The notes: generated by a model from the sequence alone, not told the origin. A stretch of DNA of 42,649 nt from Bacteroidota bacterium (GCA_021794075.1 JAJYRM010000022.1:1-42649); one strand, 5' to 3'; shown: positions 26,280-34,254, numbered from the stretch's first letter. Program-made: numbers and translations.

Positions 26280-27587
26280 ATGTGGATGGCTTATATATTT
26301 TATTTCATAATCACCGTTGGCGTTCTGGTCCTGGTGCATGAGTTCGGCCATTTCATAGCGGCCAAATTGTCAGGGATGAAGGTTGACACGTTTTCGATCG
26401 GTTTTCCGCCGCGGGCGTTCGGCAAGAAGATCGGCGACACCGACTATTGCGTTTCATGGATCCCGATCGGGGGCTATGTTAAGATCGCTGGAATGATCGA
26501 CGAAAGTTTCGATACCGATTTCGTGAACAAACCTCCGCAGCCGAATGAGTTCCGCTCCAGGCCGATGTACCAGCGAATGATCGTTGTCTCCGCCGGAGTA
26601 ATAATGAATTTCCTCCTTACTTTCCTGATCTTCTACGGCATAAATCTCGCCAACGGCAAGATGTTTCAGGCGACCACGACGGTTGGATTGGTGCGCGCGA
26701 ATACCGCCGCGCAGAAACTCGGCTTCGAGAGCGGAGACAGTCTCATCTCCATCAACGGGAAGGGAGTCAAGAACTGGGAAAACGTTCTGACCGACCTCTA
26801 CCTCGATAACGTTGCCAATCCTCTATCAGTAAAAGTCGATCGCGGTGGGAAGATTTCGGACATCACCGTTCCTAAAGGAGCGGTGCGGCCCGATAAAGAC
26901 TTCGGCCTTTACCCGAATCATATGCGTGTTCAGATCGACGCTGTTGAACCTGGATTGCCAGCCTCAAAAGTTGGAATCGAGCCGGGTGATTATGTCCTGT
27001 CAGTTGATGGGGTCAGCGTCGCGGCCGACACGCAGCTCGTGGAAATGGTAAAGTCCAGCAAGGGCAAGCCGATTCAATTAGGAATCGAACGGGGAAATAA
27101 AGTAAGTACCATTTCGGTGGTGCCCAATTCGGATGGAAAGATCGGTGTTGGGATTGTTATGGCCTACACCGGCCCGATTGAAAGATTCAGGTACAACGTT
27201 ATTTCTGCCATACCGGCGGGTTTTGATCAAACAGTCGGTGCCACCGGACTACTGCTGAAATCCATCTATCAGATGATAGCGGGGAAAGTGTCTTTCACGA
27301 AATCAATCGGTGGTCCAATCAAGATTGCTCAGCTCGCTACTCAGAGTGCCGAGATGGGGCTTGTCAGTTTCCTCGGATTCATGGCACTTCTCAGCATAAG
27401 TCTGGCCGTGCTGAACATACTTCCTTTCCCAGCACTTGACGGCGGTCATCTCGCGTTTCTTGTGTACGAGTCAATATTCAGAAAGGAAGTACCGACAAAG
27501 GTGAAGCTTGTTGCTCAGCAGGTCGGCTTCGCGGTGCTTCTCTTATTCATGGCCTTTGTAATATACAACGATATAGTGCATTTCTGA
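26280..27587 (+). CDS. rseP: RIP metalloprotease RseP (site-2 protease)
   Basis: Zinc intramembrane protease that cuts anti-sigma factors and leftover signal peptides within the inner membrane. The 435-residue protein has the active-site HEFGH at residues 20-24 in the first membrane helix, two PDZ domains between about residues 125 and 300 (with GLVRANTAAQKLGFESGD and PGLPASKVGIEPGDYVLSVDG cores; only part quoted), and the second zinc-site motif NILPFPALDGGH in the third helix. Signal-peptide or anti-sigma substrates cannot be read from this. It follows dxr with a short AT-rich leader that again carries GAATTTGAAAATT. A strong terminator follows. Confidence 0.96.
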   Translation: MWMAYIFYFIITVGVLVLVHEFGHFIAAKLSGMKVDTFSIGFPPRAFGKKIGDTDYCVSWIPIGGYVKIAGMIDESFDTDFVNKPPQPNEFRSRPMYQRMIVVSAGVIMNFLLTFLIFYGINLANGKMFQATTTVGLVRANTAAQKLGFESGDSLISINGKGVKNWENVLTDLYLDNVANPLSVKVDRGGKISDITVPKGAVRPDKDFGLYPNHMRVQIDAVEPGLPASKVGIEPGDYVLSVDGVSVAADTQLVEMVKSSKGKPIQLGIERGNKVSTISVVPNSDGKIGVGIVMAYTGPIERFRYNVISAIPAGFDQTVGATGLLLKSIYQMIAGKVSFTKSIGGPIKIAQLATQSAEMGLVSFLGFMALLSISLAVLNILPFPALDGGHLAFLVYESIFRKEVPTKVKLVAQQVGFAVLLLFMAFVIYNDIVHF

Positions 27588-27596
27588 GATCGTTTA

Positions 27597-27629
27597 AGGC
27601 CATTCGATGAATCGGATGGCTTTTATTTT
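27597..27629 (+). terminator. intrinsic terminator after rseP
   Basis: AAGGCCATTCG (27596-27606) pairs with CGGATGGCTTT (27613-27623), eleven base pairs counting two G-U wobbles, around a six-base loop, and is followed by TTTTATTTTG. It separates the dxr-rseP unit from the FecR-CHASE2 operon. Confidence 0.8.
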
Positions 27630-27761: not shown

Positions 27762-28865
27762 ATGAGACGTTTTGACATTACCGTTTTGTCCATCAGTCTG
27801 CTTTTGCTTTCAGCCTCTGCGAAGGCGCAGACTTCCAACAGCCTCGTTAATATCACCCTCACTGTTCCCCAGACAAATCAGATTTATGTGGCAGATTTGG
27901 ATATGCAGCATATACAGAGCTCAGGAGTCCTTTTCTCGGCCACAATACAGTCACTCGCGTCAAGTCCGATTCAAGTTAAGCTTAGAATGACGGTCAATGT
28001 GACGCTCACCGATGGAACATCCTATCCGGACATCGCCGACGCGACCACGAACCCATTCACGCTCCAACCGGGACAAGTAAGAGTCATAACAAATGTCGAT
28101 TTGTCCGGCAGCAATCCGGCAATCAGCGTAGAGAGTTCTCATTTCAATTCCGACCAGGTAGACAAGCTCAAGAGCGTCGCCCTGGCTACGGGAAAGGCGC
28201 CGGCTGGAGTTTATCAATTTGTGCTGCAATGTCTTGACCAGAACAGCATGCCTGTCTCTGAAGAGGCTCAGGGGAGCATCATCGTGACGAACCCAAGCAG
28301 GATAGAGCTCGCGCTCCCTATGGACCAGGGAAATGTTTCGACGCTTTTTCCTCATTTCCAATGGATGGCGAATGTCGATACCGTAGTGCTCTCGGTGTAC
28401 GAGAAGCTACCGAGCCAGGTGAGCCCCGAGGATGTCGTCTCAGGAGTTCCTTACTTGAGAGTAACAGTGCCAAACTCGACTTCCCCGGCTCCAGGGTCCT
28501 TCAATTATCCACCATCCGGTCCGGGGGTTAGGCCATTGCAGAATGGGAGAACTTACTATTGGTACGTTCAGGTACCGGGCTCTGTGTCGCGCGGAAGCGG
28601 GCTGAGAAGCGACATTTGGAGTTTTACTATCGGGAGTATGGGCTCTGCTGCGGAAAGCGGGACACAAAGCGGCAACATAAACAGCGAGGCCACCGCAGCG
28701 TTAAAGAGCTTCCTTTCGGGTACACCATACAGCTACCTTGCGTCACGGATCAGTATGCTTACCGGCCAGGCAACGTACGACGGCAACGAAATTTCGATCG
28801 ATGAGCTGATTGATATCCTGAAGAATATGGATAGGTCCAAAGTCACAAGTGTAATTGTTCACTAG
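27762..28865 (+). CDS. secreted beta-rich protein with C-terminal Fn3-like domain, first gene of FecR-CHASE2 cassette
   Basis: No characterised family is recognised. The 367-residue protein starts at ATG 27762, set by GGGAGGAG; a longer frame from 27714 has no ribosome binding site. It has a Sec signal peptide with probable cleavage after AKAQ (residue 23). Residues 25-175 look like beta-sandwich sequence; 180-291 resemble an Fn3-like module with FPHFQWMANVDTVVLSVYE and a run ending GRTYYWYVQVPG and SDIWSFTIG, as in surface proteins that present a repeat of Fn3. A final helical segment (about 308-365, with ISIDELIDILKNMD) may dock a partner. Ten bases separate it from the FecR gene, so it belongs to that system. 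Confidence 0.75.
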   Translation: MRRFDITVLSISLLLLSASAKAQTSNSLVNITLTVPQTNQIYVADLDMQHIQSSGVLFSATIQSLASSPIQVKLRMTVNVTLTDGTSYPDIADATTNPFTLQPGQVRVITNVDLSGSNPAISVESSHFNSDQVDKLKSVALATGKAPAGVYQFVLQCLDQNSMPVSEEAQGSIIVTNPSRIELALPMDQGNVSTLFPHFQWMANVDTVVLSVYEKLPSQVSPEDVVSGVPYLRVTVPNSTSPAPGSFNYPPSGPGVRPLQNGRTYYWYVQVPGSVSRGSGLRSDIWSFTIGSMGSAAESGTQSGNINSEATAALKSFLSGTPYSYLASRISMLTGQATYDGNEISIDELIDILKNMDRSKVTSVIVH

Positions 28866-28875
28866 GGAGGCGGCA

Positions 28876-29559
28876 ATGAAAAAGAGGAACGCTGTGATAA
28901 TTTTCGCGCTGTTCGTGTTTGCCGCGACCCTTGCGTTTAAAGAAGCGGCGACGAGCAACGTAGCACTCTTCTGGATTATCAAAAACAAAGTTGAGAAGAG
29001 TCCTACTTCAAAGGTGTGGAAAAACGCCAAGAAGGGAGAGCTAATTTACGGAGGTGACTACGTCAGGACACTTCCCAAATCTTTCGCTCTGATTAAATTC
29101 AACGATTCCAGCACCCTTCGCCTCGGGCCCGAATCAGAAGTGCAAGTGAATGGCTTGGACAATCCGTCGAACATGTACGTCAACAACGGCGACGTCGGAT
29201 TCTCTATGGCCAAAAGGAAGGACAAGCCTTTTGAGTTCACCACGCCTACGAGTGTCGCGTCGATTCGGGGCACACAGGGCATCCTGGTGGTCGGGCTTAA
29301 TAATTCCGATTTCCTTACGATTGTTGAGGGGCTCGTCAGGTTCGTGAACAACTTCTCGCACGATTCGGTAAACGTCGGCGCCGGTGAGACCGGGGTCTCC
29401 TCGTCAAACGGCAGTATCTCAATTCATAAGTCAACTCAAGCCGATCTGGAGAGGCTGGCGCAATTGAACGACCAGTTCGGCAGGAAACATGAACTAAAGA
29501 TCCAATACCGTGACAGCAACGGACAAATGCGTGAGATCATAATCAATACTCAGCAATAA
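28876..29559 (+). CDS. FecR-domain protein
   Basis: The 227-residue protein has an N-terminal signal anchor or signal peptide (about 5-21) and a periplasmic FecR domain from about residue 60 to 155. The family marks are GDYVRTLPKSFALIKFNDSS, LRLGPESEV, and FTTPTSVASIRGTQG with its TP...RGT core. Classical FecR proteins pass an outer-membrane signal to a sigma factor; here no sigma or anti-sigma gene is near and the next genes are a barrel and a CHASE2 cyclase. FecR-domain proteins beside CHASE2 cyclases are known from other bacteria. ATG 28876 is set by GGGAGGCGG. A helical tail (about 185-227) follows the domain. Confidence 0.88.
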   Translation: MKKRNAVIIFALFVFAATLAFKEAATSNVALFWIIKNKVEKSPTSKVWKNAKKGELIYGGDYVRTLPKSFALIKFNDSSTLRLGPESEVQVNGLDNPSNMYVNNGDVGFSMAKRKDKPFEFTTPTSVASIRGTQGILVVGLNNSDFLTIVEGLVRFVNNFSHDSVNVGAGETGVSSSNGSISIHKSTQADLERLAQLNDQFGRKHELKIQYRDSNGQMREIIINTQQ

Positions 29560-29603
29560 GCGGTCACGGTTCAAACTACAGAGCAGTGTTGGTCGGAGGC
29601 ATT

Positions 29604-32027
29604 GTGAGCAAATCTAACAAGATTATTGCGGGGGGCAGAACTGCGCTCACGCTGTTGTGGCTATCCTTTCTATTCCTCGGGCGAACTGCCTTCGCGCAGC
29701 AGGGGCTCGTGATGAACCTTACAGCTACATCCGGAGCGGTGGAGAACAGCCCTGTTGTAGTCAAGGCGGAAGTTAAGAGCCTGACGAACATCTCTCAGGC
29801 GCTTCTTTTCTACCGGAACGACCTGTCCACCGACTTTCAGCAAACCGAAATGAGTTTCCAGGAATCCTCGATGACTCTTTCTGGGACAGTGCCTTCGTCG
29901 TATGTCGTCAGTCCGTATATCGAAGTCTATGTCAGGCTAATAATGAGGGATGGAACTACAGAGACTTATCCTAGCGAGAGCCCCACGGAAAATCCAGTTC
30001 GCATAAGCGTCGGTAGGTCCGAATCCGAGAAGGATATCCTGATAATAAGTCCTGATCGAGACCAGCGATTGACCGTTGACAATCTAATGATAGCGGCCTC
30101 CATGCTCTTCGCGCCTAAGTCCGTCGACAGGAAAAAAACGCGACTCTACTTTGATGGTTTGGATGTTACCGGAGACGCTGTTGTGAGCGGACAGGTTATC
30201 GTCTATTCGCCGTCAAAGTTCCCAATGCCGATCACCGGTGGGATTCACACAGCCAAAGTCGTGCTGTACGATTCAAGCGGCTCGCGGGCCGCGAGTCTGG
30301 AATGGAGTTTCTATATCATCGCGCCGGGCGAAAAGCAAGGCTCCGGCTTCTCTTACCAGGGGTCAGGGAAGATCGAACTGAGGAACGAGACGATCAGCGG
30401 AGTCTCGACGTGGTACAACAGGGGAGATCTGAATCTTAACGGCACGGCGCTCGGCATGAACATGGGAGCAAATGTGCACGTCACCTCCGAGGAGAAGTCC
30501 TACCGGCAGCCGCAGGATAGGTTTGGCATTTACGCTTCCACTTCATGGCTCAGCCTGAGATTGGGAGACAGTTATCCTGCGTTCAGTCCGCTCATCATGA
30601 ACGGACTCCGAGTCCGCGGGGTATCCGGGATGTTGTCTCTCGGATTTTTCAACCTGCAAGCGGCCTACGGTCAGACCGTCAGAGGCATCAACGGACAATA
30701 TCTTGACACCGTCGTCGTGGCTCCGGGCTCAGGGCTTCAGCTTACGGGCGCGAACTACATCAGGCTGGATGATTCTACTTTCATCGGCGTGAACTACGGC
30801 ACATATTCAAGAAATCTTCTCGCCGTCCGCCCCTCTTTCAACTTCGGAAGCCATGCGAGTGTCGGTTTCACTTTTCTCAAATCGTCTGATGTCCTTAGCT
30901 CTGTAAACTTTGGGAGTGATCCTAACCAGAATGTTGTCCTCGGAAGCGATTTCTCTATGAATTTCGACAACAGGAGAATAAACTTCCTGGCCGAGGGGGC
31001 GATGAGCATGCTTAATCAGAACACAGCGGTCGGCAGCAGGTCCGCGGCGTTCATAGATTCAGTATCTCAGTCTAATACCGGCACGCAGATCAACAACATC
31101 GTTCCGCTAACGACTTTGTCCCAGCTCATCACGATAAACGAGTACCTAGTGCCGCTCGACCCGACCAAGCTTTCGTCTCTCGCCTGGGACGTGGGCCTCA
31201 GCCTCAATTACTTCAACACATTCGCGAAGGTCGGATATGTCTACCGGGGACCCGATTACGCTTCTTTCGGGCAGCCATTCATAAGAACCGATATTCGGGG
31301 ACTCGATTTCTTTCTGCGGCCGCGCCTGTTCAGCAACCAGGTGCTTCTCTCCATTTCATATGAGAACCTTTTCGATAACCTGCAGCATCAGAAAGTTGCC
31401 ACGACGAATTTCGTTAACTCGAACGTGGCGGTTTCGTATTTCCCGATAGCGTCGCTGCCGGGTTTGACTTTAGGTTACTCATCCTATTACAATATAAATT
31501 CGCTTTCTCCCGATTCCGCTTACGCGATCGATAACCTGACATACAGGTACTATATCGAGTCGAACTATTCGTTCAAATACCTGGGTCAGCAGAATCTCGC
31601 CGTGAGCTTTGGTATAAGCAAGCGGAAAGACAAGGTCCTTCTCGGAATAAACATGGTCAACTCCAATGTGTCGTTCATGTTGAATTCCAGTTTCGGCAGC
31701 GTGCCTCTGAGGACGACAATCGGTTTCAACTTGAACGGCAACCGCACCGCCATGAAAGACACCACGGCTTTGGTGCTTTACGAGCAGATACAGACTTTCA
31801 ATTACACATTCATCACGCTCGGCGCTTCATACGGATTTTTCAAAGATAGATTGAATGTCGGCGCCAATTACACACCCACGTTTGGCGCGTTTACGAGGAA
31901 CGGTTACGGCTTCACGGCTAGTTACCTCGTGGCACAGGCACAGTCAATCAATCTCAACGTGAGTTATTTTGCCGCCACAGGCTCGGACGATCTTATAGGT
32001 TCTCTCGTGTACGCCGTGGATTTTTGA
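29604..32027 (+). CDS. outer-membrane beta-barrel protein with N-terminal Ig-like domains
   Basis: The 807-residue protein starts at GTG 29604, with GGAGG at 29595-29599, and has a signal peptide with probable cleavage after AFA (about residue 28). Two beta-sandwich (Ig-like) domains occupy about residues 30-240, the second with FDGLDVTGDAV and GGIHTAKVVLYDSSGS. From about 245 to the end, alternating amphipathic strands with aromatic girdles (for example GKIELRNETISGVSTWYNRG and LSFY-type turns) indicate a large beta-barrel, and the last residue is Phe, as the BAM machinery prefers. No TonB box or plug domain is visible, so it is not a TonB-dependent receptor. Function is unknown; its place between FecR and the CHASE2 cyclase suggests a sensor or signal gate. 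Confidence 0.8.
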   Translation: MSKSNKIIAGGRTALTLLWLSFLFLGRTAFAQQGLVMNLTATSGAVENSPVVVKAEVKSLTNISQALLFYRNDLSTDFQQTEMSFQESSMTLSGTVPSSYVVSPYIEVYVRLIMRDGTTETYPSESPTENPVRISVGRSESEKDILIISPDRDQRLTVDNLMIAASMLFAPKSVDRKKTRLYFDGLDVTGDAVVSGQVIVYSPSKFPMPITGGIHTAKVVLYDSSGSRAASLEWSFYIIAPGEKQGSGFSYQGSGKIELRNETISGVSTWYNRGDLNLNGTALGMNMGANVHVTSEEKSYRQPQDRFGIYASTSWLSLRLGDSYPAFSPLIMNGLRVRGVSGMLSLGFFNLQAAYGQTVRGINGQYLDTVVVAPGSGLQLTGANYIRLDDSTFIGVNYGTYSRNLLAVRPSFNFGSHASVGFTFLKSSDVLSSVNFGSDPNQNVVLGSDFSMNFDNRRINFLAEGAMSMLNQNTAVGSRSAAFIDSVSQSNTGTQINNIVPLTTLSQLITINEYLVPLDPTKLSSLAWDVGLSLNYFNTFAKVGYVYRGPDYASFGQPFIRTDIRGLDFFLRPRLFSNQVLLSISYENLFDNLQHQKVATTNFVNSNVAVSYFPIASLPGLTLGYSSYYNINSLSPDSAYAIDNLTYRYYIESNYSFKYLGQQNLAVSFGISKRKDKVLLGINMVNSNVSFMLNSSFGSVPLRTTIGFNLNGNRTAMKDTTALVLYEQIQTFNYTFITLGASYGFFKDRLNVGANYTPTFGAFTRNGYGFTASYLVAQAQSINLNVSYFAATGSDDLIGSLVYAVDF

Positions 32028-32052
32028 TGGGCTCGGGTATTACATTTCACCA

Positions 32053-34254
32053 ATGAAAACAGTCGGCGGCGCAATTTCGAGAACGCGAAAGCTACTGCTG
32101 CCGCTCTTGATAGCCGTGCTCTCTTCGGGCGTCGCTTTCATGCTGTCCCGTGATATTCCATTCGATGTACCCTTTCTGAAGACTGCCCAGCTAAGGACGT
32201 TGGACCAGCGATTCGAGGCGAGAGGGCCTGTCAACATCCATGACACTTCCAAAGTGGTGATTGTAGCGCTGGACGATCAATCGTTCCAGGCCCTACCAGA
32301 CGAAATAGTTTTCCCGCGGAGTTATTATGCGATGGCGATAAAGAACCTTTACGCCGCCGGAGCGAAGGTTGTGTGTGTCGACGTCGTGTTCGACGGCCGC
32401 TCTCCGATAAAAGGTGACGACAGCGCTCTTGCCGCCGTCTTGAAAAAATACCCGTCAACCGTTCTTGCCGTTAGAAATACTATCTCAGTTTCAGGAAGGG
32501 TCACGGTGCTCAAGAGCCGCGACTATTTCCACAACATATTCTTAAGAAATGACAGCTCGATGGGTACCGTGTTGCTGCCGAACGATCCGGACGGCGTTTA
32601 TCGTAGATATATGCCGTATGTCGATTTCCGCACGGGAGCAAATACTTACACGCCGGTCCCTTCATTCGGATTTGAGGCCGTATCAAGGTATTGGGGACTT
32701 GGGAATAAGGTGGCTTCGGACGGTCCGGGGTACTTCAGATTGGGAGGAATGAGAATACCGAAGTACAGCCGTTCTTCGATGCTGATCAACTATCCCGGTC
32801 CGGCAGGAAGCTTTCCGACCTATGACCTCTGGCAGGTACTCGACGACTCCTCATTCCAGACTCGCGACGAGAAGGACTTCGGACTTCAAATAAACGCCTA
32901 CTACCCATTGAAGAGCAGCGGAGTTTTTAAGAATAAGATCGTGCTCATCGGCGCGGAATATCCGGAATCGGGTGATCTGAAGCCGATACCTTTCCTAAAG
33001 AACAAATCAGAAGAGCAGAGCAACATGGCCTACGGGGTTGAGATACACGCCGCCGCCATTCAGACCCTTTTAGACGGAGATTTCTATTACAACTCCGCCG
33101 CATGGGTGGATTTCCTTGAAATGTTTGTCGGAGCCTTCCTGATAGCCATGACTTCGTTCCTTTTCAAGTCTGCCAAACATTCGAGGATGTTCCTGGTAAT
33201 CTTTATTCCGCTTCTTGTAACTGCGGGAGTTGTGGCTGCATCTCTTGAAGCCGCGTTTGCGCTCTTCATAAAAGACAGGATAATCCTTAAGATCATATAT
33301 CCTATCCTCGCCTACTCGTTCAGCTATGTCTCCGTTGTCGTCTATCAATTTGTGTCCGAACGCAGGGCCAAGGCGGCAATCAAGTCACTCTTCAGCAGGT
33401 ATGTCGATCCTTCTGTCGTGAACCAATTAGTAGGTAACCCGGCTCTCGTGAGGCTCGGCGGAGAACGCAAAGAGCTTACAGTCCTTTTTTCCGATATTGC
33501 CAGCTTCACCTCGGTAAGTGAAAAACTGTCGCCTGATGATCTAGTCGCTCACTTGAACGATTACCTTTCGTCGATGACGGAAGTTGTCTTCCAGAACTCC
33601 GGGACCCTGGACAAGTACATCGGCGACGCGATAATCGCTTTCTGGGGGGCGCCTCTGGATGTCAAAGACCATGCTTACCGCGCGTGTCAGACGGCGATCG
33701 AGATGACAAGGCGGCTGGACACTCTCCACGAAAAATGGAAAAGCGAAGGGAAGCCGCTTCTGAACTTCAGGATCGGAATAAACTCGGGCGAGATGGTGGT
33801 TGGAAATGTTGGCGGCAGGGATAGGTTCGATTACACGGTCATAGGCGACAACGTTAACCTTGCTTCTCGTCTTGAGTCGGCGAACAAAATGTATCGTACC
33901 AGGTTGATGTTGAGCGAGTATGCTTACGAGCTGGTGAAAGATAGGGTGTTTGTCCGCGAACTCGATTTGATAATCGTGAAAGGGAAGACCAGGCCGGTGA
34001 AGATATACGAGCTGATATCGGACAGGATTGACAATGTAACCGAAGAGAAGAAGAAGCTCGTCGAGATTTATTGCGCGGGGTTGGCGGCGTATCGTGGCCG
34101 TCATTGGAAGGCGGCAAAGAGCCTGTTCGAGAAAGTCCTCTCGATGGATTCGGCGGACTATCCTTCGGAGATGTATCTCGAGAGGTGCATGCTTTACGAG
34201 ATAGAACCTCCCCCTGATGAATGGAACGGCGTTTTCATAATGCAGACAAAATAA
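32053..34254 (+). CDS. CHASE2-domain class III adenylate cyclase
   Basis: Membrane receptor-cyclase predicted to make cAMP from ATP. The 733-residue protein has an N-terminal membrane helix (about 14-32), an extracytoplasmic CHASE2 sensor domain (about 45-345, with VVIVALDDQSF and GAKVVCVDVVFDG), three closely spaced helices (about 352-370, 380-404, 411-433) and a cytoplasmic class III cyclase domain. Every catalytic residue is present: metal Asp481 (FSDIASFTS) and Asp525 (GDAIIAFWG), adenine-selecting Lys521 and Thr595, and transition-state Asn602 and Arg606 (NLASRLES). The Thr points to class IIIb and ATP rather than GTP. A helical tail follows. It is the last gene of the four-gene cassette. 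Confidence 0.93.
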   Translation: MKTVGGAISRTRKLLLPLLIAVLSSGVAFMLSRDIPFDVPFLKTAQLRTLDQRFEARGPVNIHDTSKVVIVALDDQSFQALPDEIVFPRSYYAMAIKNLYAAGAKVVCVDVVFDGRSPIKGDDSALAAVLKKYPSTVLAVRNTISVSGRVTVLKSRDYFHNIFLRNDSSMGTVLLPNDPDGVYRRYMPYVDFRTGANTYTPVPSFGFEAVSRYWGLGNKVASDGPGYFRLGGMRIPKYSRSSMLINYPGPAGSFPTYDLWQVLDDSSFQTRDEKDFGLQINAYYPLKSSGVFKNKIVLIGAEYPESGDLKPIPFLKNKSEEQSNMAYGVEIHAAAIQTLLDGDFYYNSAAWVDFLEMFVGAFLIAMTSFLFKSAKHSRMFLVIFIPLLVTAGVVAASLEAAFALFIKDRIILKIIYPILAYSFSYVSVVVYQFVSERRAKAAIKSLFSRYVDPSVVNQLVGNPALVRLGGERKELTVLFSDIASFTSVSEKLSPDDLVAHLNDYLSSMTEVVFQNSGTLDKYIGDAIIAFWGAPLDVKDHAYRACQTAIEMTRRLDTLHEKWKSEGKPLLNFRIGINSGEMVVGNVGGRDRFDYTVIGDNVNLASRLESANKMYRTRLMLSEYAYELVKDRVFVRELDLIIVKGKTRPVKIYELISDRIDNVTEEKKKLVEIYCAGLAAYRGRHWKAAKSLFEKVLSMDSADYPSEMYLERCMLYEIEPPPDEWNGVFIMQTK

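Follow-up and report, generated by a model that had tools for sequence, protein, structure and literature searches.

In Sinorhizobium meliloti, the outer-membrane barrel NsrA is needed for the CHASE2 cyclases CyaK and CyaD1/CyaD2 to answer an outside signal or protein (PMC7529298; PMC13001267). A cluster described from genomes only in Campylobacterota comprises a CHASE2 adenylate cyclase, a phosphodiesterase, a FecR-domain outer-membrane protein and a TPR protein (PMC9239204), and the BiofilmReg operon of Burkholderia encodes a response regulator, a LysM-FecR protein, a CHASE2 histidine kinase and a DUF4136 protein (PMC5192318). The factors recognized by CHASE2 domains were stated to be unknown (PMC5192318). 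Here, we describe four genes in a DNA stretch of 42,649 nucleotides from a Bacteroidota bacterium (GCA_021794075.1 JAJYRM010000022.1:1-42649), referred to as the window throughout this paper. The genes, named SEC (secreted Ig/Fn3 protein), FECR (periplasmic FecR-domain protein), BAR (Ig-domain outer-membrane barrel) and CYC (CHASE2 adenylate cyclase), fill positions 27762-34254 of the + strand between rseP and ruvB, and they probably encode one trans-envelope receptor with cyclic AMP (cAMP) as its output.

Both this cassette and the NsrA-CyaK system encode an outer-membrane barrel, a FecR domain and a CHASE2 cyclase together. On S. meliloti pSymB (L213:4162-9770), an open reading frame (ORF) of 1219 amino acids (aa) contains a FecR domain at 85-179 (E 4e-16 with the FECR profile of the cassette), TPRs and, at about 600-1200, a C-terminal part, and its stop overlaps the start of a CHASE2 cyclase that is cyaK in the records of other S. 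meliloti strains. Because its length, position and C-terminal span fit the published barrel (residues 600-1200), this ORF, unannotated in the record, is probably NsrA. The same pair is found on a Methylocystis plasmid (L215:2180-7716), where a FecR-TPR protein of about 1220 aa immediately precedes a CHASE2 cyclase; from these two pairs, FecR, barrel and CHASE2 cyclase appear to come together again, with another barrel and another division into chains. There, the FecR domain, the TPRs and presumably the barrel are on one chain, whereas the cassette has separate genes with no TPR in FECR or BAR, a barrel that carries Ig domains, and SEC as a fourth, secreted protein. On an Azospirillum plasmid (L214:5223-9869), another type of barrel, encoded by an FhaC/ShlB-type outer-membrane gene, follows a CHASE2 cyclase.

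The Campylobacterota cluster likewise has a CHASE2 cyclase beside a FecR-domain envelope protein, but a phosphodiesterase and a TPR protein accompany them and no Ig-barrel or SEC is mentioned (PMC9239204). BiofilmReg shares with the cassette a FecR protein gene directly before a CHASE2 receptor gene, and differs in its histidine kinase output and lack of a barrel (PMC5192318). In the FecA-FecR-FecI system a FecR domain also relays between outer membrane and cytoplasm, but that system consists of a TonB-dependent receptor, a transmembrane FecR with a cytoplasmic arm and an extracytoplasmic function sigma factor, none of which is in the cassette (PMC9249621; PMC8144685). In the window, no sigma factor gene interrupts or directly adjoins the four genes, and the four are adjacent in 60 loci; BAR has no Pfam match, be it to a plug or to a signalling domain, and has Ig-like domains instead.

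The four-gene set is a conserved system. BAR was searched for in 61 relatives, by profile in 392 genomes of the phylum, and in named contigs (Ignavibacteria, Melioribacter, Stygiobacter, Kryptonium and others), which gave 91 distinct BAR loci, 69 of them with at least 2.3 kilobases (kb) on both sides. The order SEC-FECR-BAR-CYC on one strand was present in 60 of these 69 loci, from several classes of the phylum; in three others CYC lay apart from SEC-FECR-BAR, at another place in the genome, five had BAR alone, and one was a distant case. Stygiobacter electus 09-Me (L109) is among the bearers of all four genes. Nothing in the loci cut by contig ends contradicted this order. Neighbouring genes in the relatives were identified only where they matched genes of the window, and dxr-rseP lay upstream in 26 of 68 four-gene loci, with other genes in the remainder. 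All pairwise distances among the four proteins were correlated after removal of the rseP and dxr distances (partial r 0.37-0.66, Mantel p 0.002 or less), most strongly between SEC and FECR. The distances track those of rseP and dxr, and there was no sign of a recent horizontal island or phage cargo. The ratio of nonsynonymous to synonymous substitution rates (dN/dS) against the two nearest congeners was 0.03-0.05 for all four genes and about 0.04 for SEC, a rough estimate at dS = 1.4-2.0; because of these low ratios, SEC, FECR, BAR and CYC are regarded as real genes under strong purifying selection.

In about a hundred genomes, the four genes are retained or missing together. Orthologues were called at E under 1e-100 for BAR and under 1e-200 for CYC, cut-offs that were set after the gap in scores had been seen. 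In the scan of 392 genomes, BAR and CYC orthologues occurred in the same 48 genomes of the window's own class, with SEC detected in 47 of them and found on inspection in the 48th (G282). Across the phylum, CYC was present in 93 of the 94 genomes with BAR, and the remaining one (G126) has CYC at 1.8e-119, which narrowly misses the cut-off; because genomes are not sampled independently, a hypergeometric p for this co-occurrence should not be taken literally. CYC without BAR was seen in G307, G345, G360 and G279. In the congeners G002 and G006, rseP is followed directly by ruvB, all four genes are absent, and no CHASE2 cyclase match was found anywhere in the genome. An earlier reading of the window from its sequence only (the sequence-only reading) had proposed the four proteins as one envelope system, an idea to be given up if the families rarely co-occurred or if the barrel and the secreted protein matched well-characterised families; the four families in fact co-occur very tightly and neither protein matches such a family, so that the proposal of one system is well supported by co-occurrence.

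In three families of another class (f30, f45 and f57), the set is split into a SEC-FECR pair, BAR, and CYC, which stands alone and is about 780 aa long; all four genes are kept. SEC and FECR were paired in all eight genomes inspected, and BAR lay beside HIT and TPR genes in the loci looked at. Because all four genes are kept after dispersal, joint function is favoured over a shared address. A passive neighbourhood, in which the genes are adjacent by descent only, was ruled out: the block occurs in several contexts, and all its parts are kept where it is broken up.

CYC contains a CHASE2 domain (PF05226, 36-363, E 7.5e-44) and a cyclase domain (PF00211, 473-652, E 8.5e-26). According to hydropathy, one transmembrane segment is at 12-33 and three are within 348-430, with CHASE2 between them and the cyclase C-terminal. 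The residues D481, K521, D525, T595, N602 and R606 were invariant in 24 of 24 sequences and fill all the catalytic roles, namely the metal-binding Asp pair, the substrate-binding Lys and Thr/Asp, and the transition-state Asn and Arg. The Thr at 595 is the signature of class IIIb. The nearest solved relatives are CyaB (3r5g) and the adenylate cyclase 1wc1, which are class III adenylate cyclases. Judged by these residues, the catalytic site is intact and CYC is catalytically competent. Seven proteins that bind cyclic nucleotides are encoded in the genome and could read cAMP. The genome also holds a second CHASE2 adenylate cyclase (C168:9846-11999; L072, L002) of 717 aa, 39% identical over its C-terminal part, which is flanked on one side by the gene of a small lipoprotein and on the other by that of an SH3-M48 peptidase. 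A gene of the CRP family lies about 4 kb downstream, and a comparable pair of cyclase and SH3-domain protein was seen in G134 (L189).

FECR has an N-terminal hydrophobic segment at 3-26 by hydropathy and a FecR domain at 62-152 (PF04773, E 3.1e-11), and no cytoplasmic anti-sigma domain or arm was found in its 227 residues. FECR is intact at L042, L061, L089, L150 and L203, and SEC at L203. Copies of the first Ig-like domain of BAR (Ig1) were found inside FECR proteins of relatives, one each in L066 ORF 4 and L156 ORF 6 and three in L065 ORF 6 (independent E-values 2e-11 to 2e-16). Because Ig1 copies occur in three FECR proteins, this domain sharing suggests a periplasmic position for Ig1 and a common site of action for FECR and BAR.

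BAR has a signal peptide, Ig-like domains at 36-139 and 140-248, and a beta-barrel at 249-806 predicted by AlphaFold from a family alignment of 26 sequences (mean predicted local distance difference test score, pLDDT, 81.5; predicted template modelling score, pTM, 0.57); the count of 26 strands was taken with DSSP from this model, which, like that of SEC, is built on a shallow alignment. All 26 sequences end in F, I or L, and the BAR of the window in Phe. In the model's strand list, the loops that follow odd strands mostly exceed in length those that follow even ones, as would be the case for a barrel whose two ends both face the periplasm. The closest solved barrel was MtrB (6r2q, chain B; VIA-align Z 20.8 over 447 residues, root mean square deviation 4.8), followed by ushers, OprD-type porins and TonB-dependent receptors. 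The likeness to MtrB, with 26 strands in the BAR model, is one of fold only, and MtrB has no sequence match to BAR. FECR and BAR have no Cys and SEC has one, so CxxCH is impossible in these three proteins, and no haem cytochrome of the kind that partners MtrB or PioB is in the cassette. The barrel had no significant match in Pfam, NCBIfam or PDB sequences, and membership of BAR in a known family was rejected, as only Ig1 weakly resembles the C-terminal region of peptidylarginine deiminase (E 6e-4). The extracellular loops were not more variable than the strands (mean conservation 0.464 vs 0.481, p 0.42), and loops 2, 3 and 7 were conserved above the strand mean, which is suggestive, though not proof, of a conserved ligand or of loops folded into the lumen. 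A second, more distant barrel family of about 570-780 aa occurs in many relatives (e.g., G002:C9:106832-108250) and has the motif of BAR 286-365 in common.

SEC begins with a signal peptide. In its AlphaFold model (pLDDT 83.5), two Ig/Fn3-like domains, at about 28-178 and 182-292, are followed by a small alpha/beta part at the C-terminus. Its best structural matches are Fn3/Ig domains, such as RbmA (4be6, VIA-align Z 9.3 over 103 residues). Neither a significant family in Pfam or NCBIfam nor any other sequence match was found; SEC was rejected as a member of a known family, the structural matches being generic Fn3/Ig ones.

The following mechanism is proposed for the receptor. BAR would reside in the outer membrane, its two Ig-like domains would reach into the periplasm, and together with the secreted SEC it would form a receptor module. 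A change at the surface, in a ligand, a particle or the state of the outer membrane, would pass through the Ig domains of BAR to periplasmic FECR, which would contact the periplasmic CHASE2 domain of CYC. CHASE2 would then alter the activity of the cytoplasmic class IIIb cyclase, by activation or inhibition, and the cAMP might act on CRP-family regulators. The sequence-only reading had proposed the same path from barrel through FecR and CHASE2 to cAMP; its direction, like the ligand, the protein contacts and the sign of the response, is one that we infer, and the path is favoured by the Sinorhizobium NsrA/CHASE2 cyclases and by the domain sharing between FECR and BAR. A broader proposal, which we hold as possible rather than probable, is that the set represents a phylum-wide class of outer-membrane receptors that work without TonB, a sigma factor or a two-component kinase, in which a 26-strand Ig barrel and SEC gate a CHASE2 cyclase through a free-standing FecR. 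CHASE2 would then serve as the place at the inner membrane where a FecR messenger from the periplasm docks, and would not itself sense an environmental molecule.

Several points weigh against a single receptor. CYC is unlinked in three genomes, and shared rates or transfer of the block may account for part of the co-evolution signal. The hhalign probability between BAR and the NsrA-like C-terminal part was about 0, a weak comparison as a single sequence was set against a profile. G307, G345 and G360, all of one genus, keep FECR-CYC without SEC and BAR, that is, the inner pair without its receptor; they seem to have undergone a joint loss of SEC and BAR. (G277, at L204, belongs to the same genus as these three, at L200, L201 and L202, and has all four genes.) Such genomes would be expected if FECR-CYC were the signalling unit and SEC-BAR a separate outer-membrane structure, a cAMP-controlled effector encoded in the same operon, and FecR-CHASE2 pairs do exist elsewhere without this barrel, as in the Burkholderia operon of a LysM-FecR protein and a CHASE2 histidine kinase (PMC5192318). 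This arrangement is nevertheless improbable in our judgement, given that Ig1 of BAR occurs in FECR proteins, that SEC stays with FECR and not with BAR in the scattered sets, and that the S. meliloti barrel acts upstream of its cyclase.

The barrel could also be a transporter. BAR would then be a channel or an assembly or export machine for a polymer, protein or nutrient, SEC its periplasmic or surface accessory, and FECR and CYC would report its working state, with cAMP as feedback from transport or biogenesis and not as a sign that an outside ligand has been perceived. The structural neighbours of BAR, which include the conduit scaffold MtrB, the ushers FimD and PapC and transporters, speak for this, as do the frequent position of the cassette after rseP (26/68) and the resemblance of the first SEC domain to RbmA and other Ig/Fn3 modules. 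Generic barrel similarity, however, shows no function; genes for secretion, transport or polymer synthesis were not seen to accompany the cassette in gene maps that are only partly annotated, and the missing CxxCH haem motif leaves no MtrCAB-like conduit, so we consider such a machine unlikely, if far from negligible. Very improbable, in our view, is a proteolytic route in which the neighbour-encoded RseP cuts the N-terminal membrane segment of FECR and the release or degradation of FECR alters cyclase activity. RseP of E. coli does cleave FecR (PMC8144685), rseP adjoins the cassette in many genomes, and FECR has a suitable hydrophobic segment; yet few residues precede that segment and FECR has no cytoplasmic part that could be set free, the removal of signal peptides is also a general activity of RseP, and dxr and rseP are not both present in 42 of the 68 four-gene loci.

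If the four genes do form one receptor, they make a concrete claim about CHASE2, namely that it receives a protein-borne signal from the outer membrane. The claim is drawn because the four genes are retained or lost jointly, are all kept in one class despite being scattered, and include FECR and BAR with a domain in common. Ignavibacteria and their relatives, a lineage known mostly from metagenomes, would gain a surface-signalling pathway, and two unannotated protein families, SEC and BAR, gain a probable role. The four-gene set seems never to have been described. The sequence-only reading had held that no described system has this exact set, and literature searches, with thin coverage of subscription journals, found no paper on it; the general kind, a FecR and an outer-membrane protein with a CHASE2 cyclase, has been noted before in Campylobacterota (PMC9239204), and in S. 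meliloti an outer-membrane barrel is known to act upstream of CHASE2 cyclases.

The coordinates of the genes and of the features on their left are given in Table 1.

Table 1. Positions of the cassette genes and of the adjoining upstream features in the window
Feature	Position	Strand	Details
rseP (site-2 protease), neighbour, not counted as cassette member	26280..27587	+	Pfam M50 3e-63 and PDZ
Terminator-like hairpin after rseP, left cassette edge	27596..27623	+	12-pair stem, then T-rich tail
SEC	27762..28865	+	ATG start, 367 aa; ORF call, Shine-Dalgarno
FECR	28876..29559	+	ATG start, 227 aa; Pfam FecR, hydropathy
BAR	29604..32027	+	GTG start, 807 aa; ORF call, AlphaFold model
CYC	32053..34254	+	ATG start, 733 aa; Pfam CHASE2 and Guanylate_cyc

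The same-strand layout with gaps of 10, 44 and 25 bases that had been read from the sequence agrees with these coordinates, and the Pfam matches and AlphaFold models uphold the identities assigned there to the four genes, a secreted Fn3-like protein, a FecR protein, an Ig-barrel and a CHASE2 cyclase with intact catalysis. The boundaries and signals fared less evenly. Of the good ribosome binding sites claimed for all four genes, clear Shine-Dalgarno sequences precede SEC and FECR and a less clear one BAR, and CYC has no evident one. Ahead of ruvB, where the sequence-only reading had placed a promoter as the right boundary, no sigma-70-like promoter was found. The absence of a sigma factor, a TonB receptor and a peptidase holds for the four genes themselves, but a site-2 protease is encoded 174 bases upstream, by rseP. 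The hairpin proposed as a strong left terminator is present, but the region has no more sites of this kind than shuffled sequences do (7 found vs 7.5 expected), and it is confined to the nearest relatives, beyond which the upstream alignment is too poor to judge a conserved operator. In two congeners the spacing between rseP and SEC is only 22 and 44 bases, and because of this short spacing the cassette may be read together with rseP in them.

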